Source of the DNA: Bdellovibrio svalbardensis
Lineage (GTDB): Bacteria; Bdellovibrionota; Bdellovibrionia; Bdellovibrionales; Bdellovibrionaceae
DNA length: 64,000 nt
Direction: 5' to 3'
Assembly (NCBI RefSeq): GCF_029531655.1
Contig: NZ_JANRMI010000001.1
Coordinates: 186,001 to 250,000 of the forward strand
Position numbers and translations under genes: made by a program. Below are positions 7,365 through 54,258 of this stretch, one piece after another. Every line of letters begins with the position of its first letter. The first letter of the stretch is position 1. The notes beneath the pieces were generated by a model that saw only the letters and a program-made list of their open reading frames with translations, did not search any database and was not told where the DNA came from.

Positions 7365-8138
7365 ATGAAGATTTTTGTGTGCATCAAGCAGGTGCCTGAC
7401 ACCGAAACAAAGATTAAAATCTCTCCCGACCAAACCGGAATCGAAGCGGCGGGCATTAAGTGGGTTATGAACCCATATGACGAGTATGCAGTTGAGGAAG
7501 CTAACAAGCTTCGCGACGCCAACCCAGGATCCCAAGTTTGGGTTTTGAGTGTTGGACCAAAGGCTCGTGTTGTGGAATCTCTTCGCACCGCTTTAGCAAT
7601 GGGCTCTGATGAAGCCATTGTGGTGAACGCTGAAGGTTTGGACAGTTTTGCAACTGCAAAAGCACTTGCTGAAGTGATCAAAGCTGAAGGTGGCGCAAAA
7701 GTAATCTTCTCTGGCAAGCTTGCGATTGATGACAATGCTTCATCCGTCAGCCAAATGATGGCTGAATTCCTGGGTGTTCCGCATACAACTGTGGTTTCTA
7801 AGTTTGCATTCACCCCTGAAAGCGTCACTGTAGAACGTGATATCGAGGGCGGAGCAAAAGAAGTTGTACAGATGATGACTCCAGCAGTAGTTGCGGCAAA
7901 CAAAGGCTTGAATATGCCTCGTTACGCAAGTCTTCCGGGAATCATGAAAGCAAAAAAGAAAACGATCAAAGAGATCGAATTTGCTTCTTTAAACATTCCA
8001 GCGACAGACATCAAAGTTAAGTACTCTGGTATGACTCTTCCTGCTGAAAAACCAGCTGTGAAAATGATCTCTGGCGATGCGGCTGCACAAGCTTCTGAGT
8101 TGGTTAAACTTCTTCGCGATGAAGCGAAAGTTCTGTAA
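7365..8138 (+). CDS. etfB: electron transfer flavoprotein beta subunit
   Basis: EtfB pairs with EtfA to collect electrons from acyl-CoA and other dehydrogenases and pass them to the quinone pool through ETF:quinone oxidoreductase. The N-terminus (MKIFVCIKQVPDTET) and the VERDIEGGAKEVV and MPRYASLPGIMKAKKK segments are typical of the family, including the AMP-binding region. The length of 257 is normal. It is preceded by a GGGG site eight bases from the ATG and is followed by etfA after a short gap. It diverges from sdhC. Confidence 0.95.
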   Translation: MKIFVCIKQVPDTETKIKISPDQTGIEAAGIKWVMNPYDEYAVEEANKLRDANPGSQVWVLSVGPKARVVESLRTALAMGSDEAIVVNAEGLDSFATAKALAEVIKAEGGAKVIFSGKLAIDDNASSVSQMMAEFLGVPHTTVVSKFAFTPESVTVERDIEGGAKEVVQMMTPAVVAANKGLNMPRYASLPGIMKAKKKTIKEIEFASLNIPATDIKVKYSGMTLPAEKPAVKMISGDAAAQASELVKLLRDEAKVL

Positions 8139-8150
8139 GGAGCAATGAAT

Positions 8151-9119
8151 ATGGGTAAAGTATTAGTTTTTGCTGAACACACGAACGGAAAACTCAAACG
8201 CAGCTCTATCGAACTTATTCAAGCGGCTGCAAAATCTGGAAACACTGTGGTTGCAGTAGCATTCGGAGCTCACGCTGCGGATGTAACAGCAGCAATGGGT
8301 CACAATGGCGCCAACGAAGCTCACATCGTAAAAGATGCAGCTTTGGACGCTTACAATCCAGAATCTTTTACTGCAAACATCGTTGCAATCATCAACAAAG
8401 TTCAACCTTCCATCGTGCTTGCGTCTGCTTCTTCTACTGGTAAGGACTTGTTCCCAAGAGTTGCAGCTCGTTTGAACACAGGCGTTGCAAGTGACTGCAC
8501 AGAGCTAAAGATCTCTGGCGACAATGTTACTGCTGTTAAGCCTATGTATTCTGGCAAAGCATTTGCGACTGTAAACTTTGAAAACAGCCCTATCAAAATC
8601 GTTTTGATGCGCGCAAATCAACTTCCAGTTGAAGCTGCTGATACAGCAAAAACTGCAAACGTTGTTGAACATGCCGCTGCCGCAACCGACCTTAAAACTT
8701 TGATCAAAGAGATCGTTAAGGGCGCTAGCGAAAAGCTTGATTTGACTGAAGCAAACATCATCGTTTCTGGTGGTCGCGGCTTGAAAGAGGCCGGCAACTT
8801 TAAAATGTTGAATGATCTTGCTGACGTATTGGGTGCCACTGTTGGTGCTTCCCGTGCCGTTGTTGACGCTGGTTGGGTAGGACACGGCATGCAAGTTGGA
8901 CAAACTGGAAAAACAGTTGCTCCTACTTTGTATATCGCTGTTGGTATCTCTGGCGCGATTCAACATTTGGCTGGCATGAGCGGTTCTAAAGTTATCGTTG
9001 CTATCAACAACGATGCAAATGCGCCGATCTTCCAAAAAGCCACTTATGGTATCGTTGGTGACGCTTTTGACATTGTTCCTAAATTGACTGAAGAGTTCAA
9101 AAAAGCTCTTCACCACTAA
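8151..9119 (+). CDS. etfA: electron transfer flavoprotein alpha subunit
   Basis: EtfA provides most of the FAD site of the ETF heterodimer. The C-terminal FAD domain is clear: SGGRGLKEAGNF near residue 205, GASRAVVDAGW, QVGQTGKTVAPTLYIA and GISGAIQH. I prefer the ATG at 8151 (322 residues) because AAGGAG lies eight bases upstream. The ATG at 8145 would be only two bases from that site. It is co-transcribed with etfB, and the next gene follows within about six bases. Confidence 0.95.
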   Translation: MGKVLVFAEHTNGKLKRSSIELIQAAAKSGNTVVAVAFGAHAADVTAAMGHNGANEAHIVKDAALDAYNPESFTANIVAIINKVQPSIVLASASSTGKDLFPRVAARLNTGVASDCTELKISGDNVTAVKPMYSGKAFATVNFENSPIKIVLMRANQLPVEAADTAKTANVVEHAAAATDLKTLIKEIVKGASEKLDLTEANIIVSGGRGLKEAGNFKMLNDLADVLGATVGASRAVVDAGWVGHGMQVGQTGKTVAPTLYIAVGISGAIQHLAGMSGSKVIVAINNDANAPIFQKATYGIVGDAFDIVPKLTEEFKKALHH

Positions 9120-9125
9120 AGAAAT

Positions 9126-9788
9126 TTGGGCTTGGTGTTTAGAAAATATATCCTTCCGATAATTGTTTTCATTTTTTATCGAACCCTCTCGTGGACGTGG
9201 AGGGTTCGAATCATCGAGCCTGAATCTCTTCAAAAATCCCTTGAAGATAGAAAACCTGTTGTTCTTTCTCACTGGCATGGCGATGAGCTTGCGTTGATTT
9301 CCATTGTTAAACGCTACAACATCGCCACCATTGCCTCCCAATCCAAAGATGGCGAATTGATGTCCAAAGTACTTGGATGGCTGGGCGCAAGAACCAGTCG
9401 TGGCTCTTCATCTCGCGGTGGAGTTCAGGCCCTTAAGGGCTTGTTGCGTTTACTAAAAGACGGGGGAAATTGCAGCTTTGCAGTAGATGGCCCGAAAGGT
9501 CCGTTACACAGAGTGAAGCCTGGAGTCTTTGAACTTTCGCGCATGATTCATGGCCCAATTTACGCTGTCGGTGTGTACTGCGATCGCGCTATTTATTTTC
9601 CAAAATCTTGGAATAAAACTTACCTGCCGAAGCCCTTCGCTCGAGTGATCATTTATTGGGTTGGCCCCATGGATGAGATCAAAAAAGAGGTCGATCCAAG
9701 AAACCCAGACCTTGCTCTAGAGTTAGAGACGCTTTTGCACCACGCACGGGCCCAAGCTCTTAATTCCATTGCCGATAATGATGCCTAG
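9126..9788 (+). CDS. DUF374-type lysophospholipid acyltransferase family protein
   Basis: The 220-residue product has the DUF374/LPLAT pattern: an N-terminal hydrophobic anchor (IVFIFYRTL), SHWHGDE in place of the usual HxxxxD motif region, IASQSKDGE, RGSSSRGG and FAVDGPKGP. These proteins are thought to acylate lipids on the inner-membrane face, sometimes in the lipid A pathway. The substrate cannot be read from sequence. No ATG is available. Candidate starts are TTG 9126, TTG 9132 and GTG 9135, with a poor ribosome-binding site, so the N-terminus is uncertain. It may be co-expressed with etfBA. Confidence 0.85.
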   Translation: MGLVFRKYILPIIVFIFYRTLSWTWRVRIIEPESLQKSLEDRKPVVLSHWHGDELALISIVKRYNIATIASQSKDGELMSKVLGWLGARTSRGSSSRGGVQALKGLLRLLKDGGNCSFAVDGPKGPLHRVKPGVFELSRMIHGPIYAVGVYCDRAIYFPKSWNKTYLPKPFARVIIYWVGPMDEIKKEVDPRNPDLALELETLLHHARAQALNSIADNDA

Positions 9789-9841
9789 TGCTAGCCTTTT
9801 TCCATAGTACGAATTCAACTTTTTAAAGGGACTTTTAAAGT

Positions 9842-10651
9842 ATGAAACTTGTTATCAGCATCTTGATGCTCATCTCGGCGACCTCTTTTGCACAGAAATC
9901 CACGGAAGTGGTGGCGCAAGTGGGTAATAAAACAATCACACTTGAGGACTTCAATAAAAAGTACAATGAAATACGTACTCAAACGATCAATCCTCCATCG
10001 AAACAACTCTTCCTTGAAGATATGATTCGTTACGAAGTGGGCGTTCAGGAAGCTAGAAAACGTGGCTTCGAGAAGGATCCCATCGTTCAAGACCAATACA
10101 ATCAGGTTCTTTACAAAGCTCTTCTTGAGAAAGAGCTAGGTCAAAAAGTTCAAAAGATCCAAGTTTCAGACAAAGAAATGGAAGCTTGGTATAAAAACAA
10201 TCCAGAACTTCGCACCAGCCATATCTTGATCGAATACAAGCCAGGCGCGACGCCAGCCCAAGTCGCAGAAGCACAAAAACGTGCGACTGAAATCTTCGAA
10301 GAAGTTAAGAAAAGCAAACGTCCTTTTGAAGAACTTGTTAAATTGTACTCTGACGATGCTCTTTCAAAACAAGTTGGTGGCGACATCGGCTGGCAATCTC
10401 GTGTAACGCTTGTTCCGAATTATTACGATGCAATCCAAGCAATGAAAGTCGGTGAAATCAAGGGCCTCATCGAGACTCAGTTTGGCTTCCATATCGTAAA
10501 ATTGACAGGTCGTAGAAGCTTTGAGAACGCAAATAAGCGCCAAATCAGAGCTGCAGTATTCGATGAAAAGAGAAAAATGCTTTTCAACGAGTACTTTGAG
10601 AAGTTGAAAAAGACTTACTCTATTAAAGAAAATAAAAGTGCTCTTAAATAA
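9842..10651 (+). CDS. exported parvulin-type peptidyl-prolyl isomerase
   Basis: The 269-residue product has a signal peptide (MKLVISILMLISATSFA) and an N-terminal helical chaperone region containing an AQVGNKTITLEDF start motif. A PpiC/parvulin domain follows at about residues 120-215 (RTSHILIEY, FEELVKLYSDD, GGDIGW, QFGFHIVKL). It probably folds or escorts proteins in the periplasm, like SurA, PrsA or PpiD. It is the first of three parvulins in a row (next at 10715 and 11676). The start follows GGGAC with suitable spacing. Confidence 0.9.
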   Translation: MKLVISILMLISATSFAQKSTEVVAQVGNKTITLEDFNKKYNEIRTQTINPPSKQLFLEDMIRYEVGVQEARKRGFEKDPIVQDQYNQVLYKALLEKELGQKVQKIQVSDKEMEAWYKNNPELRTSHILIEYKPGATPAQVAEAQKRATEIFEEVKKSKRPFEELVKLYSDDALSKQVGGDIGWQSRVTLVPNYYDAIQAMKVGEIKGLIETQFGFHIVKLTGRRSFENANKRQIRAAVFDEKRKMLFNEYFEKLKKTYSIKENKSALK

Positions 10652-44309: not shown

Positions 44310-46724
44310 ATGGCGAAAAAAACCACTCAAAGAAAAATTAAAGTCGATATCACTCAGTTTGCGGTTCCTTGTCCGCGGGTGGGCAGTATTGAGCTGTATT
44401 CGGGCTATGGTCAGGTTCCGCAGCTGGGGCAGGAGATACACCAGTCCGTTCAACGTCGCCGCATACGCGAGGTCTCGGGCTATGTGGCTGAAAAAAAGAT
44501 GAGTATCGAGTTTTCTCGGGGCGAATATCTTTTTGTGGTGTCTGGTCGCGCCGATGGATTTATCGAAACGCCGGACTGCCAGATCGAAGAAATCAAGTCA
44601 GCATTTGATGTTGAAAGCCTTGAGCGCAAGGTTTCGGGCGACGAAAATCATCCCTATGTTTGGCAGCTTCGCACCTATGGCTACATTCACTACAAACAAA
44701 CAGGCGAAGTTCCAGAATTGAAAATGTTGTTGGTTTCTTCACGAAACTTCAAGACCAGCGAAATCTATTTTGATTTGGATGTTGAAGAATATGAAGCGTG
44801 GCTGGCTTTACGTTTGGCTGAACTGGTTGAGGAAACTAAGATTCGCGAAAAACTATTTAAGAAAAGGGTCGAGATTTCTGAAAATCTTCAGTTCCCTTTT
44901 TCATCACCTCGTCCCGGTCAGACGGAGCTGATTTCAAGCATTGAAGAAGGCTTTGCCGAAGAAAAATCGATAGTTGTGCAGGCGCCAACAGGCTTGGGGA
45001 AGACAATTGGTGTCTTGTATCCTTCGCTCAAGGACTCTTTGGCGCGAGGGCAGAAGGTTATTTACGTCACTCCTAAAAACTCTCAGCATCAGGTTGCCGA
45101 AGAGGCTGTGGATCGCATGCAAGAGTTGGGAGCAACCATTCGTCCGCTGACGATTACGGCTAAAAGCAAGATGTGCTTCAAGGCCGAGCCCATTTGCAAT
45201 CCGCAGTACTGTGAATATGCCCAAGACTACTATAAGAAAATCGCAGATAACGACCTTGTTAACAAAATTTCCAAACTACGCTCTTTAAGCCAGAAAAAGC
45301 TTCGTCAATTAGGTGAAGAGTTTCAAGTTTGTCCCTTTGAACTTTCAGTAGAAGCGATTGAGCGAGCCGATGTGGTGATTGCCGACTATAACTATGTCTT
45401 CTCAACCCGAAGTCTTCTGGGGCGCCTGCAGAATCCTTTGTTGGAGCCTGATGAGAAGGCCAACTTAGTTATTGATGAAGCCCATAATCTTCCATCAAGA
45501 GCCCAGGACTACTTTTCTCCATCGATATCAACCAGAGAGCTTCGTCAGATTGAGGAACCTTTGCTCAAAGTCGCGAAAAGATTTTCAAAACGTGGATTGG
45601 CTTTATGCAAAGAAGCGCAAGATCTCATTGAAGAGTACCGCGGGGAATCGCGTAATATCAGTATAGATTTTGATCCGGTGTTTGAACTTGAGAAAAAGCT
45701 TCGTGAATTTATGGCTGAATATCTTGAAGCGGATATTGAAGTACAACCACAGGATGGCGTTCTTCGTTTGACCAATGTTTGGAGCGATTTCGCACAAGCC
45801 CTGGAGTTGAAAGGGCCTGAATTTTTTCAAACCTATCAGAAAAACAAAATATTTGGCGAAGACAATGAAACCCTGAAGGTTACCTGTTGTGATGCTTCGG
45901 CACATTTAAATGAAATCTATAAGTCGTTCAAAAATGTTGTGGCCTTTTCAGCGACGCTGAAGCCATTCTCTTACTCCTCGAAGCTCTTGGGATTCACTGA
46001 AGAATCGACAAAGTGCCTGGAGTTTGTGTCTCCTTTTCCGAAGGAGAATCGCAAGATTATTGTCATTCCACAAATATCTACAAAATACAAAGAGCGCACA
46101 TTCAGCTCGCCACGAATTGCTGAGGCTATCGAGAAGATCATGGAATTGAAATCGGGAAATTACATTGCCCTATTTCCGAGCTTTGATTTTATGAAGGATG
46201 TTGAAAAACATTTGAAACAAACTTTTTACCAGCGTCTGATTCAACAACGAGAAATGAAGGCCGCTCGAGTTGATGACTTTCTTTCCTTCATGAAGAATAA
46301 CGATCATCCAACTTTGCTACTGGCGGTACAGGGCGGAGTCTTCTCAGAGGGTGTGGATTTCCCTGGGGATATGCTGATTGGTGCGTTTGTCATTGGGCCG
46401 GCGCTGCCGACTTTTGACTTTGAGAGAGAACAAATTCGCCAATACTACGAGAAGAGTCACGATAAAGACGAAGCTTTTAACTATACTTACGTATATCCGG
46501 CGATGGCTAAAACGATTCAGTCAGCGGGTCGTGTGATTCGTTCAGAAAGTGACAAGGGGATTATCGTCTTGATGGACTCTAGATTCCTGGAAAGTACTTA
46601 TTCAGAAACAATGCCTCAGGGTTGGTTTAAGGAGTCTCCTCGTGAATTGGTTTCTCAGAAGATTCTTTCTGACATTTCTGAATTTTGGCAAAGTATTGAA
46701 AAGGTCAAGGGCGTGGAGTCATGA
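44310..46724 (+). CDS. XPD/DinG-type Fe-S helicase with PD-(D/E)XK domain
   Basis: The 804-residue protein starts with a Cas4/RecB-like nuclease region: D82 in GRADGF, E94-x-K96 in IEEIK and a QLRTYGY motif. A superfamily 2 helicase follows, with Walker A APTGLGKT (225-232), four cysteines at 289, 296, 301 and 341 that suit an iron-sulfur cluster, DEAH at 389-392, SATL, and QSAGRVIR. This is the XPD/DinG layout, which unwinds DNA 5' to 3'. Its stop overlaps the next nuclease gene by four bases. No strong ribosome-binding site is seen. A repair or DNA-end role is likely. Confidence 0.85.
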   Translation: MAKKTTQRKIKVDITQFAVPCPRVGSIELYSGYGQVPQLGQEIHQSVQRRRIREVSGYVAEKKMSIEFSRGEYLFVVSGRADGFIETPDCQIEEIKSAFDVESLERKVSGDENHPYVWQLRTYGYIHYKQTGEVPELKMLLVSSRNFKTSEIYFDLDVEEYEAWLALRLAELVEETKIREKLFKKRVEISENLQFPFSSPRPGQTELISSIEEGFAEEKSIVVQAPTGLGKTIGVLYPSLKDSLARGQKVIYVTPKNSQHQVAEEAVDRMQELGATIRPLTITAKSKMCFKAEPICNPQYCEYAQDYYKKIADNDLVNKISKLRSLSQKKLRQLGEEFQVCPFELSVEAIERADVVIADYNYVFSTRSLLGRLQNPLLEPDEKANLVIDEAHNLPSRAQDYFSPSISTRELRQIEEPLLKVAKRFSKRGLALCKEAQDLIEEYRGESRNISIDFDPVFELEKKLREFMAEYLEADIEVQPQDGVLRLTNVWSDFAQALELKGPEFFQTYQKNKIFGEDNETLKVTCCDASAHLNEIYKSFKNVVAFSATLKPFSYSSKLLGFTEESTKCLEFVSPFPKENRKIIVIPQISTKYKERTFSSPRIAEAIEKIMELKSGNYIALFPSFDFMKDVEKHLKQTFYQRLIQQREMKAARVDDFLSFMKNNDHPTLLLAVQGGVFSEGVDFPGDMLIGAFVIGPALPTFDFEREQIRQYYEKSHDKDEAFNYTYVYPAMAKTIQSAGRVIRSESDKGIIVLMDSRFLESTYSETMPQGWFKESPRELVSQKILSDISEFWQSIEKVKGVES

Positions 46725-48295
46725 CACTAGCGGAATTGCCTCTGTTCTTTTTGGATTTGCAGACAACTGGATCAAAACCAGATAGTGGGGCTCATATTCT
46801 TGAGATGGCCTGGTCTTCATTGAACGGCGATATTGAAAGCACTTTGGTTCAGCTTCCTGCTGATGAGAAAATTCCATATCGCATTCAAATTATCACGGGC
46901 ATCTTCAATGAAGATATGGAAGCAGCTGTTCCAGTGGCAGAAGTTTTTTCTAGAATTGAAAATAGCTTTTCTGGATTGCCGTGCGTGATTCACTTTGCCC
47001 AATTTGAAAAACCTTTTCTGGCACATGCTTACGAACAATTGGGCAAAGAGAATTCTTTAAATATTTTATGCACTCACGAAATAGCCAAGAGACTTTTCCC
47101 AAATCTGCCAACCCGCGGGATTAAGGGTCTTGCGGGATACTTCGGTTTTCCTTCTTCAGATCTAAAAAGATCAGCCCAGCAGGTAGCGGCAACGAAGGTC
47201 ATTTGGAAAGGTCTTGTTGCGGCCTTGGCTGAGCAGGGCATTCATTCCTATGAAGAACTCCAACAATGGCTTCAGATCACGCCGAAAGGGACTCGCACGA
47301 AGTATGAGTATCCGCTACCAAAAGAAAAGCGTCTAAGCCTTCCAGACCAGCCGGGCGTTTATCGCATGGTGAGTAAGTGGGATGAGGTGCTGTATGTGGG
47401 TAAGGCGACCTCTTTGAAAGATCGCGTGAACAGTTACTTCCGCGGCCAGAAGAATCGCGATCCCCGAAAACTGGAAATGCTAACTCAGACCTATGATCTT
47501 CGCGTGACAGTTTGTGGGAGTCCTCTTGAGGCAGCTTTGCTTGAGACTGATGAGATCAAAAGATTGGATCCAAAATATAATATTAGTTTAAAAGCGGGTC
47601 AGCGCTCGATTGTATTTTTCAATCGTGATCTGACTGATTTCAACTTTGAGCAGAACGAAGAGTATTGTTTTGGACCTTTTTCGAACCCAATGGTTTTTGA
47701 TTCCATTCGCAACCTGAGTTCTTGCCTGATTGAAGGTCTTTTCCATGACAATATCTTCTACGAACCCGTTGATGGTGCGTTGGTTGAAAGTGGTTTTGGC
47801 TTATTCTGTGAACGAAATAATCTTTGCAAGGAAACTTTCAAATCCGTTCGATCAGTTTTGGCACAGGGGCTTTGGTGGAATCGACAATACGATATTGAAG
47901 AGGAAGAGCCGCTTGAAGAAGCAGAGGGTCTTGATGCCGTCGAGTCAGCCGGCGCTGAAGAATTAGACGAAGTCCAATTAACAGCCGAAGATATCGCGGA
48001 TAAGTTCGAGCGTCACTTTATGCGTGCCGGCCGTTCCTTTCTTCGCGCCAAACAACTAACCCGAATTTTGAATGCCGACATTGATTTTCATATAATGAAA
48101 GAAGATCTGAATTCAAAATACCATCTCAAAATTCGCAAGGGTTTTGTAAATAATGAAGCCCCTAGCGACAGAGTAAGAAAAGTTCAACTTTGGAATGGGC
48201 TTGATATCGACACATATGATCGCATGAGCGTACTGCTCTCTGAGTTGAATAAAATCGAAACTCAAAATGGTGAAGTTAAAATCCAACCCCTTTGA
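46721..48295 (+). CDS. GIY-YIG nuclease fused to a degenerate DnaQ-like domain
   Basis: Residues 5-170 resemble a DnaQ-type 3'-5' exonuclease, but the DEDD motifs are altered: DLQTTG (D12, Q14 in place of E), HFAQFE (D replaced by E96) and KRSAQQVAAT (H and D lost). Residues 210-290 form an intact UvrC/Cho-type GIY-YIG domain: GVY 212-214, YVGK, R235, and E275 in LLETDEIKRLDPKYN. A C-terminal region with an acidic linker (about 395-425) follows. The gene overlaps the helicase gene, so the two are probably translated as a pair for DNA incision and unwinding. Confidence 0.82.
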   Translation: MTLAELPLFFLDLQTTGSKPDSGAHILEMAWSSLNGDIESTLVQLPADEKIPYRIQIITGIFNEDMEAAVPVAEVFSRIENSFSGLPCVIHFAQFEKPFLAHAYEQLGKENSLNILCTHEIAKRLFPNLPTRGIKGLAGYFGFPSSDLKRSAQQVAATKVIWKGLVAALAEQGIHSYEELQQWLQITPKGTRTKYEYPLPKEKRLSLPDQPGVYRMVSKWDEVLYVGKATSLKDRVNSYFRGQKNRDPRKLEMLTQTYDLRVTVCGSPLEAALLETDEIKRLDPKYNISLKAGQRSIVFFNRDLTDFNFEQNEEYCFGPFSNPMVFDSIRNLSSCLIEGLFHDNIFYEPVDGALVESGFGLFCERNNLCKETFKSVRSVLAQGLWWNRQYDIEEEEPLEEAEGLDAVESAGAEELDEVQLTAEDIADKFERHFMRAGRSFLRAKQLTRILNADIDFHIMKEDLNSKYHLKIRKGFVNNEAPSDRVRKVQLWNGLDIDTYDRMSVLLSELNKIETQNGEVKIQPL

Positions 48296-50020: not shown

Positions 50021-50740
50021 ATGAAATTGCACCAAAGTCTTAATATCATTTTTGCTCTTTTATTGGCTCTCGGGGCTCTGCCATCAATGGCTGCGACAGA
50101 AGGCCAGTCTCTGGTGGAAATGAGAGTGGCGCAGGATGCTTTGGCGCCTTACCGCGATCGTCGCGGAACCAATGGAATGTTCATCGGAATCGATTACGAA
50201 CCCCTGGTGCTAAAAAACTTTTTTTCAACGGAAGACGGTGCGACTTACAAAGACATCTTTGGGTCTGATGGAGTTCCTTTAGTTCATTTGTCGATCGACT
50301 ATAAGTTCAATTTTATGTTAGGGGCACTTACGGCCGGTGCCGATATTGGAATGGGTAGTATCACGGGTAATTCCTCAAGAAAACTTGATGTGATGAAATA
50401 TGGCGGAGGTGCGAGATACGTGGCCGATGCACTACTACCTGAACCATATATTGCTCCGTATGTAGGAGTTAATTTTTGGAAGATGCAAACGAAAGAGACT
50501 CTTACTTCGGGCGATACAATCTCAGAGACGACCGATATTGGATACAATTATACAGTTGGATTGCTGATCCAACTTGATTGGCTCGATTATGAAACTGCAA
50601 AGCAGGCGACCTTTAATTACGGCCTAGAAAATACATACATCGATATCTACGCCACCCAATATGCAAAAACCGGAAATCAAGCCGACGTCAATACTGAGAC
50701 CGATGTGCTTTGGGGCGCAGGCCTCAAATTTGAATTCTAA
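50021..50740 (+). CDS. outer-membrane beta-barrel-like protein
   Basis: The 239-residue product has a signal peptide (MKLHQSLNIIFALLLALGAL, ending SMAA) followed by alternating strands and glycine/aromatic-rich turns (GMFIGIDYEP, LVHLSIDYKFNFMLGALTAG, GYNYTVGLLIQLDWLDY), and it ends in LKFEF with a terminal phenylalanine, the usual beta-barrel signature. I take the ATG at 50021. A TTG at 50009 is also open. It diverges from nagZ and its stop interleaves with that of mfd. Function unknown. Confidence 0.72.
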   Translation: MKLHQSLNIIFALLLALGALPSMAATEGQSLVEMRVAQDALAPYRDRRGTNGMFIGIDYEPLVLKNFFSTEDGATYKDIFGSDGVPLVHLSIDYKFNFMLGALTAGADIGMGSITGNSSRKLDVMKYGGGARYVADALLPEPYIAPYVGVNFWKMQTKETLTSGDTISETTDIGYNYTVGLLIQLDWLDYETAKQATFNYGLENTYIDIYATQYAKTGNQADVNTETDVLWGAGLKFEF

Positions 50741-53700
50741 ATCTGCTTTAAAAGTTGTTCTAGTTCGGCGTGGACCGCGGACCAACTGATAGTCGCGAGC
50801 TTGATGTTCAGGCGATTGTCTGGCGTGAGAGAATACTTTTTATTCTCACGAACGGCCAACTGAATAACCGTTTCAGGTTTGAGTTTGGTTTTCTCTGTGA
50901 AGATCAATGAAATAGATTTTACTCCGGCACTGATATCACGAACGCCCAACTCTTTACACTGGCGACGGATGAGCATTAATCCCATCAAATTCAAAGTTTG
51001 ATCTGGAATTGGACCGAATTGATCACGCAATTCTTCTTCAATGCGATCAAGATCTTCGTTTGAAGTGATATCAGCCAACGCCTTATAATATCCAAGACGA
51101 ATACGGATGTCTTTGATGTAGCTGTCAGGAATAAGCGCAGGGATCTTTAAGTTGATCTCTGGATCTAACTCCATGTCCTCGATCACTTCACCTTTTGCTT
51201 CCGCGAGAGCTTCATTTAATAGATCCATATAGAGCTCATAGCCGACCGTATTCACGTGACCGGACTGCTCTTCGCCTAAAATATTTCCAGAACCGCGCAA
51301 TTCAAGATCGTACTGGGCGATCTTAATTCCACTGCCCAAAGCGGTATTCTCCTGGATGATCTTTAGTCGCTCTTGCTGATCTTTATCGAGCTTTCTATTT
51401 CTTGGCATCATCAGGTAGCAGTAAGCGCGGGTCTTACTTCTGCCGACACGGCCGCGCAATTGATAGAGCTGTGACAGGCCAAACATATGAGCGGAATCAA
51501 TGAACATCGTATTGGCTCGAGGAACGTCCATTCCGGATTCAACGATCGCAGTACAAATAAGCACGTCAATTTCATGATGGAAGAAAGCGAGCATCGCTTT
51601 TTCCAGCTCATGTTCTTCCATTTGTCCGTGTGCTACGCGAATGCGCGCTTCCGGCACAATCTGACGAATTTCATCAGCCAGCCCATAAAGAGACTCGATG
51701 CGATTATGAATAAAGTAGATCTGTCCACCGCGAGAGATCTCTGCGGTGATGGCCTTACGAATGGTCTCTTCGTCGAACTTTGTAACAAAGGTTCTAGTTG
51801 GCAGGCGATCGACGGGAGCCGTATTGATCAAACTTAAATCACGAATTCCCACCAAGGCCATGTTCAATGTTCTTGGAATCGGTGTCGCAGACAGAGTTAA
51901 AGTGTCCACGCTGGTTTTGATTTTTTTGATTTTCTCTTTGTGAGTAACGCCGAATTTTTGTTCTTCGTCGATAATCAAAAGCCCCAGATCTTTATAACCA
52001 ATGGTTGAACCTAAGAGCTTGTGTGTTCCAACAACAAGATCGACTTTGCCATCTTTAAGATCTTGAATAGTCTTTTTTGCCTCGGCTGGAGTCACAAAAC
52101 GATTTAAAACGCGAATGTCGACCGGCCATCCCTCGAAACGTTTTTTGAAAGTCTCGAAATGCTGGAAGGTCAGTACAGTGGTCGGAGCCAGGACAGCAAC
52201 TTGTCTTCTAGCTTGAATTGCAAAGAAGGCGGCGCGCATGGCAACTTCAGTCTTTCCAAAGCCCACGTCGCCGCAAACCAAACGATCCATGGGTTTCGTG
52301 GATTTTAGATCCCTCAAGATATCGTTGATGGCACGCAACTGATCGTCAGTTTCTTCGTAAGGGAAACCATTTTCAAAGAGCGCAATTTCTTCCTCTTTAA
52401 AGACAAAAGGAGGTCGGTGCATTTCCGCACGTTTTGCATACAGCGCAAGAAGTTCGGAGGCGATGTCTTTGACGTGGGATTTAACTTTCGCCTTGGTTTT
52501 TTCCCAGGCTGTTCCACCAAGCTTATCCAGAACACTGGTTGCTCCAGCTCCGGAAAACTTCTGCAGTTGTCCTACGCGATACACTGGAAGATAAAGCTTA
52601 TCTTTATCCTTGTAACTTAATTGAATGAACTCAGAGTCAACGCCTCCGATGTTCATAATCTTGAGGCCTTCGTAAACACCGATACCGTGCTTGATATGGA
52701 CCACGTGATCGCCAGGCTTCAAGTCACCAAAGGCCAAACGTTTTGCTTGCTTCTGGAAATCTTGAGCCGCTGAAGAATCACGCGAGCGAGCCTTCTTTCC
52801 ATAGAAATCTTCGTCGCGTAGGAAAATAATTTGTTCTTCATCAAAACGAAGACTGTCGGCTAGATAGCGCGGAACAATGTGAATGAGCTGCTTGTTGCCG
52901 TCTTGTTCCTGCAACCAACTATCCCACTTGTATTCGTCAGCGGTCACGCGAACTGCTTTAAGCTCGAGCTTTTCAAATATCAAAGCAAGTCGATCGATAT
53001 GCGATTGATTTTTAGTCCCAACAAAAACGCGATAGCCGTCGTCTCGCCACTTGTGGAGTTTATTGGTGGCGGCTTGCAACCATAATTCAGAGCCGACTGC
53101 ATTTGCCAGACTCAGATTGGTAAAGTCTTGAGTAAGTGAGGTCTTATATTCCACGCGCACATCATCAGACCCTTCAGATTCGAAGTATTCCAATGAAGAG
53201 AAATAAAGTTGCCGAGATTTTTCTGGATAAGGTAGTTTATCAAACTGACTATAGAGCTCATCCAGCTCCGGCCGTATGACGTGTGCCTCGCTACTTGCGT
53301 AGTCCGCCTTAAGCTCCGCCCAGAATTCATCGGCGCATCGGGATATTTCAATTGGATCTAAAAAGAAGACATTCAAGGCGCCAGAAAAATGATCCAGTGG
53401 CGAAGCCAGTTCGCCGTAAAAATAGGGAAGTAGAAACTCAATGCCTGGGAATGTATTCTTTAACACCAGAGAGCGCAGCATCTCGTCCGCTTCGGCCTTA
53501 TCAACCGCGCGACCATCAATACTTTTGCGAACTCGTTGAAGAAGTTTTTCGTGCAGTTCATCGCGGAAAAGAATTTCGCGAGCAGGGCACAGCTGGAAGG
53601 ACTGAATTTCGTCGGCACTTCTTTGATCGGCGACACTGAAGTGACGAATCGATTCGATTTGATCACCAAAAAGATCCAAACGAACGGGCATATTCTCTGT

Positions 53701-54258
53701 CGGTGGGAAGATATCTACGATTCCACCGCGCAAAGCATATTGACCCTTATCTTCCACCATCGGAGCCGAAACATATCCGAGAGTGTTTAAATACCCCGCA
53801 ATATCTTCCGGAAGTTCGTCGCCAGATTTCAAAGTTCGGGTGAACTCTTTCAAGATTTTCGGCGGCAAAGTCTTTTGCATCAATGCGTCAGACGAGGATA
53901 TGAAGATTTCTCCGGGTTTTGCGGTCTGGGCTCTGGTGAGAAAATTCAGTCGATCCGAGACGCTTTGAGTGTTTGGATAAAGACCCGAATACGCAGAAAC
54001 GTCGAAGGCTGAAAGAATCGCGCTCTGACGGAGTGGGTCAAAGAACTCAATCAGTTGTTGAAGTTCGATGGCCTCACCGTGACTGCCAACAACAACTAAG
54101 TGCGGCAAGCTGTTGATTTTTTTAGAGTAAGTTTGAGACAAAAAGAAAGCAAGCGCGAGCGGCGAGGAGGCTCCCGTGACTTGAATTTTTCCGCGCGATG
54201 TTTCGAAGGCCCGTTCGAGGATAGACTCGAGCCTTGTATGAGTCATTTCTGCTTTCAT
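50737..54258 (-). CDS. mfd: transcription-repair coupling factor Mfd
   Basis: Mfd removes stalled RNA polymerase and recruits UvrA. At 1173 residues it is full length. The N-terminus has UvrB-like modules, and the middle has the RNA polymerase interaction region (DHVVHIKHGIGVYEGLK). The translocase has Walker A GDVGFGKTE, DEEQKFGV, SATPIPRTL and QLRGRVGRSKTRAYCYL. The C-terminus is the usual TRCF regulatory domain. The start may be 54258 or 54246. Its stop shares bases with the convergent outer-membrane gene. Confidence 0.96.
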   Translation of the reverse strand: MKAEMTHTRLESILERAFETSRGKIQVTGASSPLALAFFLSQTYSKKINSLPHLVVVGSHGEAIELQQLIEFFDPLRQSAILSAFDVSAYSGLYPNTQSVSDRLNFLTRAQTAKPGEIFISSSDALMQKTLPPKILKEFTRTLKSGDELPEDIAGYLNTLGYVSAPMVEDKGQYALRGGIVDIFPPTENMPVRLDLFGDQIESIRHFSVADQRSADEIQSFQLCPAREILFRDELHEKLLQRVRKSIDGRAVDKAEADEMLRSLVLKNTFPGIEFLLPYFYGELASPLDHFSGALNVFFLDPIEISRCADEFWAELKADYASSEAHVIRPELDELYSQFDKLPYPEKSRQLYFSSLEYFESEGSDDVRVEYKTSLTQDFTNLSLANAVGSELWLQAATNKLHKWRDDGYRVFVGTKNQSHIDRLALIFEKLELKAVRVTADEYKWDSWLQEQDGNKQLIHIVPRYLADSLRFDEEQIIFLRDEDFYGKKARSRDSSAAQDFQKQAKRLAFGDLKPGDHVVHIKHGIGVYEGLKIMNIGGVDSEFIQLSYKDKDKLYLPVYRVGQLQKFSGAGATSVLDKLGGTAWEKTKAKVKSHVKDIASELLALYAKRAEMHRPPFVFKEEEIALFENGFPYEETDDQLRAINDILRDLKSTKPMDRLVCGDVGFGKTEVAMRAAFFAIQARRQVAVLAPTTVLTFQHFETFKKRFEGWPVDIRVLNRFVTPAEAKKTIQDLKDGKVDLVVGTHKLLGSTIGYKDLGLLIIDEEQKFGVTHKEKIKKIKTSVDTLTLSATPIPRTLNMALVGIRDLSLINTAPVDRLPTRTFVTKFDEETIRKAITAEISRGGQIYFIHNRIESLYGLADEIRQIVPEARIRVAHGQMEEHELEKAMLAFFHHEIDVLICTAIVESGMDVPRANTMFIDSAHMFGLSQLYQLRGRVGRSKTRAYCYLMMPRNRKLDKDQQERLKIIQENTALGSGIKIAQYDLELRGSGNILGEEQSGHVNTVGYELYMDLLNEALAEAKGEVIEDMELDPEINLKIPALIPDSYIKDIRIRLGYYKALADITSNEDLDRIEEELRDQFGPIPDQTLNLMGLMLIRRQCKELGVRDISAGVKSISLIFTEKTKLKPETVIQLAVRENKKYSLTPDNRLNIKLATISWSAVHAELEQLLKQI

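Follow-up and report, generated by a model that had tools for sequence, protein, structure and literature searches.

Conserved pairing of an EndoDinG helicase-nuclease with a pseudo-DnaQ/GIY-YIG nuclease in Bdellovibrio svalbardensis and related bacteria, a candidate DNA-repair module

Comparison with the closest described systems

EndoDinG proteins are a named group of helicase-nucleases, represented by a protein of Bdellovibrio bacteriovorus HD100 whose endonuclease activity has been reported as unpublished data only; their nuclease domain is structurally closest to those of RecE, EXO5, Cas4, AddA, and Dna2 (PMC11981726). Two further systems combine a helicase with a DnaQ-fold domain and act on crosslinks or mitomycin adducts. 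Loss of SaDinG, a DnaQ–DinG fusion of the ExoDinG type, leads to sensitivity to mitomycin C and formaldehyde, both of its activities being required (PMC12345164), and the helicase MrfA and exonuclease MrfB of Bacillus subtilis repair mitomycin damage independently of UvrABC (PMC11194089). Here, we describe a two-gene locus of Bdellovibrio svalbardensis (genome of 3.9 Mb, 10 contigs), located in a stretch of 64,000 nucleotides (contig NZ_JANRMI010000001.1, positions 186,001–250,000 of the forward strand; hereafter, the window). Gene A encodes an EndoDinG protein, and gene B encodes a nuclease that joins a DnaQ fold to a GIY-YIG domain. The two genes are paired far beyond chance and, on balance, probably constitute a two-protein DNA-repair module that removes or unhooks bulky or crosslinked lesions, as a preliminary description of the locus had proposed in part.

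Since the EndoDinG group has already been defined (PMC11981726), gene A does not represent a new protein type. It matches Pfam Helicase_C_2 (137 bits), DEAD_2 (49.7 bits), and DEAD, and thus contains the core of an XPD/DinG-family superfamily 2 (SF2) helicase, while its N-terminus gave no Pfam nuclease match. The closest solved relative is Finegoldia magna DinG (PDB 9kqh), with a match spanning residues 10–772; the predicted structure of A (predicted local distance difference test, pLDDT, 83.9) aligns to it at a TMq of 0.80, and a Foldseek search with this model retrieved 9kqh, XPD, and DinG. A shares with EndoDinG and 9kqh its domain order, its nuclease residues, and a four-cysteine iron-sulphur (Fe-S) motif, including an N-terminal PD-(D/E)XK region with the conserved H, E, D, E, and K that characterize the group. 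In an alignment of 138 rows, 136–137 of which cover each site and in which one genome may contribute two rows, the putative nuclease residues H44, E61, D82, E94, K96, Q119, and Y123 show no substitution in any covering row, and neither do the Walker A residues or C289, C296, C301, and C341. The nuclease region and Fe-S helicase read from the sequence in the preliminary description are thereby borne out. Among named relatives, Bdellovibrio sequences are nearest to A, which is the sole clear XPD/DinG-family helicase of the host genome, a second, weak match being a DEAD-box RNA-helicase-like protein as judged by eye from its sequence.

The PADLOC model for the DinG of type IV clustered regularly interspaced short palindromic repeats (CRISPR) systems (PDLC01439) also matches this chromosomal gene, at 404 bits, and could thereby give rise to spurious CRISPR type IV calls. 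A reading of A as a type IV CasDinG was rejected because no csf/cas-like genes lie in the window flanks, other contigs not having been searched for cas genes. A phage origin was likewise rejected, as viral contigs hold just distant, partial relatives.

Gene B matches Pfam RNase_T (residues 10–145) and GIY-YIG (residues 211–287). In its predicted structure (pLDDT 87.7), residues 1–186 adopt a DnaQ fold (Z score of 19.5 to E. coli epsilon, PDB 2gui), and residues ~201–292 form a UvrC-type GIY-YIG domain with 46–47% identity to PDB 1yd6; residues 203–328 align to the UvrC N-terminus. The GIY-YIG domain carries the same catalytic residues as UvrC and Cho: among 60 A-linked B sequences, Y214, Y225, K228, R235, and N287 are kept in all and E270 in 59. 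However, B lacks the C-terminal nuclease half of UvrC and has a different C-terminus in addition to its N-terminal DnaQ-fold domain. Its scores fall below the cut-offs for UvrC (TIGR00194, 85.3 versus 285.45 bits, covering profile positions 4–133 of 574 and thus not the full length), Cho (NF007833, 39.1 bits versus an equivalog cut-off of 367), and the PRK07883 DEDD exonuclease series of NCBIfam (at best 162.4 versus 495 bits, profile positions 1–297 of 563), although the last has the same DnaQ/GIY-YIG order as B.

Despite the DnaQ fold, the residues of a DEDDh exonuclease are replaced in B. The site reads D12, Q14, E96, K149, and Q154 in the window, i.e., Q14 stands for E, E96 for D, K149 for H (in 58 of the 60 sequences), and H, Q, Y, or N154 for D; D12, Q14, H91, and E96 are each invariant (60/60). 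In contrast, four stand-alone DnaQ-GIY proteins of the phylum, about 430 residues long and with the same domain order, keep all DEDDh residues, and A was not found in their genomes. As the substituted positions hardly vary among the sequences, the DnaQ domain of B appears to be a repurposed and presumably inactive pseudo-exonuclease rather than a decaying one. At the position equivalent to E270, the four stand-alone proteins have V, I, or A. The pair also differs from SaDinG and MrfAB, which have an active DnaQ exonuclease and for which no GIY-YIG nuclease has been described; MrfA is a 3'-5' helicase, whereas the helicase of A is of the DinG/XPD type.

Conserved pairing and an alternative partner

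In a census of 291 genomes sampled from the phylum, with A called at E ≤ 1e-20, A was found in 66 genomes and fused B in 32, all of which carry A. The two genes are adjacent on one strand in 30 of these 32 genomes, with B downstream in 28 and upstream in two. The co-occurrence has a Fisher p value of 1.5e-24, or 2.9e-11 without the genus of the window, both uncorrected for genome relatedness. With 30 adjacent pairs, and with no genome among the 291 that has B but not A, the pairing by far exceeds what chance would give. The doublet is retained in 19 of 19 loci, which represent at least nine distinct genomic contexts and share no further gene throughout. A wider census comprised 80 named EndoDinG loci from species genomes; B adjoins A in 20 of them, Melainabacteria/Obscuribacterales included, a locus with a distant DnaQ match alone on the other strand (L106) being left out of this count. 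Adjacency is thus kept across families and two phyla, as well as in almost every sampled member of the window's genus, and it supports a functional linkage between A and B. The preliminary description had called for such a survey of co-occurrence and adjacency, and had tied its proposal to homologues being neighbours outside this strain, which they are.

The A and B trees both place the Bacteriovoracaceae pairs among those of Bdellovibrio, which is consistent with the two genes moving as a unit. The mirror-tree correlation between A and B (r = 0.84), calculated without a control gene, was given no weight as a sign of interaction. Both A and fused B are absent from two near-complete genomes of the window's genus (G004 and G013). 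In another genome (G053, locus L237, A at ~7563–9914 with B downstream), both proteins lie on extremely long branches, yet the active-site residues checked in A are kept.

In 26 of the 80 named loci, B is replaced by another gene, which sits immediately upstream of A. The tested genes fit TIGR04122 (372 and 387 bits versus a cut-off of 325), except for one truncated copy below the cut-off. This family is annotated as a beta-CASP/metallo-beta-lactamase (MBL) "ligase-associated DNA damage response exonuclease". In the phylum sample, a TIGR04122 gene is immediately upstream of A in 27 genomes, and A stands alone in nine. TIGR04122 shares with B the position of partner beside an EndoDinG gene, but its fold is unrelated and its gene lies upstream; none above the cut-off was found in the genome of the window. 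No locus carries both partners next to A, and in a tree of 81 EndoDinG proteins one well-supported branch separates B-partnered from TIGR04122-partnered genes, with the placement of L079 unresolved. Since the partners split on the tree and never co-occur, EndoDinG seems to be a helicase-nuclease with a second nuclease as its working partner, and each clade apparently settled on its partner type early. As a single branch divides the two partner types, save L079, repeated partner exchange is not claimed.

No description of the A–B pairing was found in the open-access literature, and searches combining DnaQ, GIY-YIG, and UvrC returned nothing relevant. The conserved nuclease partners are absent from the EndoDinG review, in which GIY-YIG, UvrC, and beta-lactamase-fold genes go unmentioned (PMC11981726). 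The TIGR04122–EndoDinG combination, present in several phyla, is likewise an apparently undescribed gene pair. The pairing census, the varied contexts, the alternative TIGR04122 partner, and the conserved pseudo-exonuclease in B are new here.

Candidate function and rival explanations

Repair is the best-supported direction for the A–B pair, because a DNA-damage-response exonuclease stands in for B at sister EndoDinG loci and because the related fusion SaDinG acts in crosslink repair (PMC12345164). In such a module, A would load on single-stranded DNA beside a bulky or crosslinked lesion and translocate, presumably 5'-3', while its PD-(D/E)XK domain would cut or trim one strand. The presumably inactive DnaQ domain of B may bind DNA or dock on the helicase, keeping B at the opened site; contact with A is hinted at by the DnaQ–DinG fusion in SaDinG. 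The UvrC/Cho-like GIY-YIG domain would then incise the DNA in a structure-specific manner and so release or unhook the lesion. The physical complex, the polarity, the substrate, the order of cuts, and the repair role itself are inferred.

Several observations weigh against this reading. B is missing from 34 of the 66 genomes with A, and in two others it lies apart from A; B is thus not necessarily a stable subunit. The SOS (LexA) box, of the type TTACN3GTAA, was not found in the window. The repair label of TIGR04122 is an annotation only, and the usual operon of TIGR04122-like genes, with a ligase and an Lhr helicase, is regarded as a repair cluster whose lesion is described as unknown (PMC10140301).

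The host also encodes canonical UvrB, UvrC (575 bits, elsewhere in the genome), and Mfd, so the pair would act beside UvrABC. For this reason, and because the pair shows no component that would recognize damage, the self-contained excision repair put forward in the preliminary description is not supported, although its idea of XPD plus UvrC-like excision is plausible. We tentatively suggest, as a possibility less likely than the general repair role, that lesions are removed independently of UvrABC, with adducts or crosslinks cut out by an XPD-family helicase-nuclease acting with a UvrC-like nuclease, a bacterial parallel to XPD-assisted excision; the DnaQ fold would be a sensing or docking domain, and a beta-CASP exonuclease would replace the incision partner in the sister clade.

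The strongest rival is Dna2/EXO5-like processing of replication forks, flaps, or DNA ends, in which A would resect ends or remove flaps and B would cut branched intermediates such as forks. SLX1-type GIY-YIG enzymes do cut branched DNA. The structural closeness of the EndoDinG nuclease domain to RecE, EXO5, Cas4, AddA, and Dna2 (PMC11981726) points the same way. However, the GIY-YIG domain of B is of the UvrC type, as its identity to 1yd6 indicates, and the alternative partner is named for the DNA-damage response; we consider this role rather unlikely. Destruction of phage or plasmid DNA by a helicase-nuclease and its nuclease partner would agree with the PADLOC match of A, with the variable genomic location of the pair, and with the frequency of helicase-nuclease pairs in defence. 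Yet the PADLOC model fits only the generic helicase part of A, the pair is flanked in the window by housekeeping genes (those for ATP synthase, a glycoside hydrolase family 3 protein, and Mfd), and its steady presence in the genus is unlike that of patchy defence genes, which makes a defence role improbable. Still harder to sustain is the view that B is no functional partner and that two independent repair genes are neighbours through common descent or joint transfer: the unlinked copies of B and the genomes with A but not B would fit it, but B never occurs without A and the doublet alone is retained in at least nine contexts. Least probable of all is predator-specific degradation of prey DNA, also raised in the preliminary description, since, although Bdellovibrio-like bacteria such as the host degrade prey DNA (PMC3593177), the same pair occurs in Obscuribacterales/Melainabacteria, related EndoDinG genes are carried by relatives of Geobacter and by other organisms not known to prey on bacteria, no export signal is evident by eye at the N-termini, and ATP-driven helicases act inside cells.

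Collectively, the anatomy and the functional linkage of the originally proposed pair are supported, as are the fold of its DnaQ-like domain and its intact GIY-YIG site, and repair is its most likely direction; an active DnaQ exonuclease, a self-contained pathway, and prey-DNA degradation are not supported.

Locus organization, neighbouring genes, and significance

The coordinates of the pair and of the related loci are collected in Table 1; the four-base overlap of the two genes noted in the preliminary description is confirmed.

Table 1. Features of the A–B locus (window coordinates) and loci used for comparison.
Feature	Location	Strand	Details
Gene A, EndoDinG, 804 amino acids (aa)	44310..46724	+	ATG start; PD-(D/E)XK ~aa 1-190, XPD/DinG Fe-S helicase ~aa 195-780
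Gene B, pseudo-DnaQ + GIY-YIG (UvrC/Cho-like) nuclease, 524 aa	46721..48295	+	ATG start
Overlap of A stop and B start, four bases	46721..46724	+	Coordinates of reading frames
PD-(D/E)XK nuclease domain of A, aa 1-190	44310..44879	+	Unsubstituted residues; 9kqh match; HD100 domain definition (PMC11981726)
Fe-S cysteine motif of A (C289, C296, C301, C341)	45174..45332	+	Alignment of relatives
Pseudo-DnaQ domain of B, aa 1-186	46721..47278	+	Fold from structure comparison; residues from alignment
GIY-YIG domain of B, aa 201-292 (Y214, Y225, K228, R235, E270, N287)	47321..47596	+	Pfam, structure, alignment
Stand-alone DnaQ-GIY-YIG proteins, 426-436 aa	L201:4075-5364, L202:3666-4976, L203:3473-4765, L204:4419-5699		
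EndoDinG loci with TIGR04122-type gene directly upstream, first part	L071-L075, L078, L080, L083, L085-L087, L089-L092		
EndoDinG loci with TIGR04122-type gene directly upstream, second part	L094-L097, L102, L115, L120, L128, L130, L134, L141		

The gene for Mfd, the transcription-repair coupling factor, lies at 50737–54258 on the reverse strand, 2.4 kb downstream of the pair. A functional link between the pair and Mfd was dropped, as their proximity is confined to the genomic context of the window (five related loci) and absent in other contexts. A PA0069-family radical S-adenosylmethionine (SAM) gene is found directly upstream of A at another locus (L063:4177-5271; 478.6 bits versus a cut-off of 360), and homologous genes of 357–380 aa occupy the same position at nine Bdellovibrio loci (L222–L224 and L226–L231) in two unrelated contexts, their family membership being taken from position and size. 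The window lacks this gene, and its genome yielded no match.

Although EndoDinG carries a name, the literature searched assigns it no role; its two nuclease partners, one in each clade, offer a pathway that can be tested. Why a pseudo-exonuclease should be conserved in fusion with a nuclease that looks active is a clear mechanistic question. If the repair reading is true, UvrABC would have another UvrC-like incision system at its side, which would alter the picture of bacterial excision and crosslink repair.

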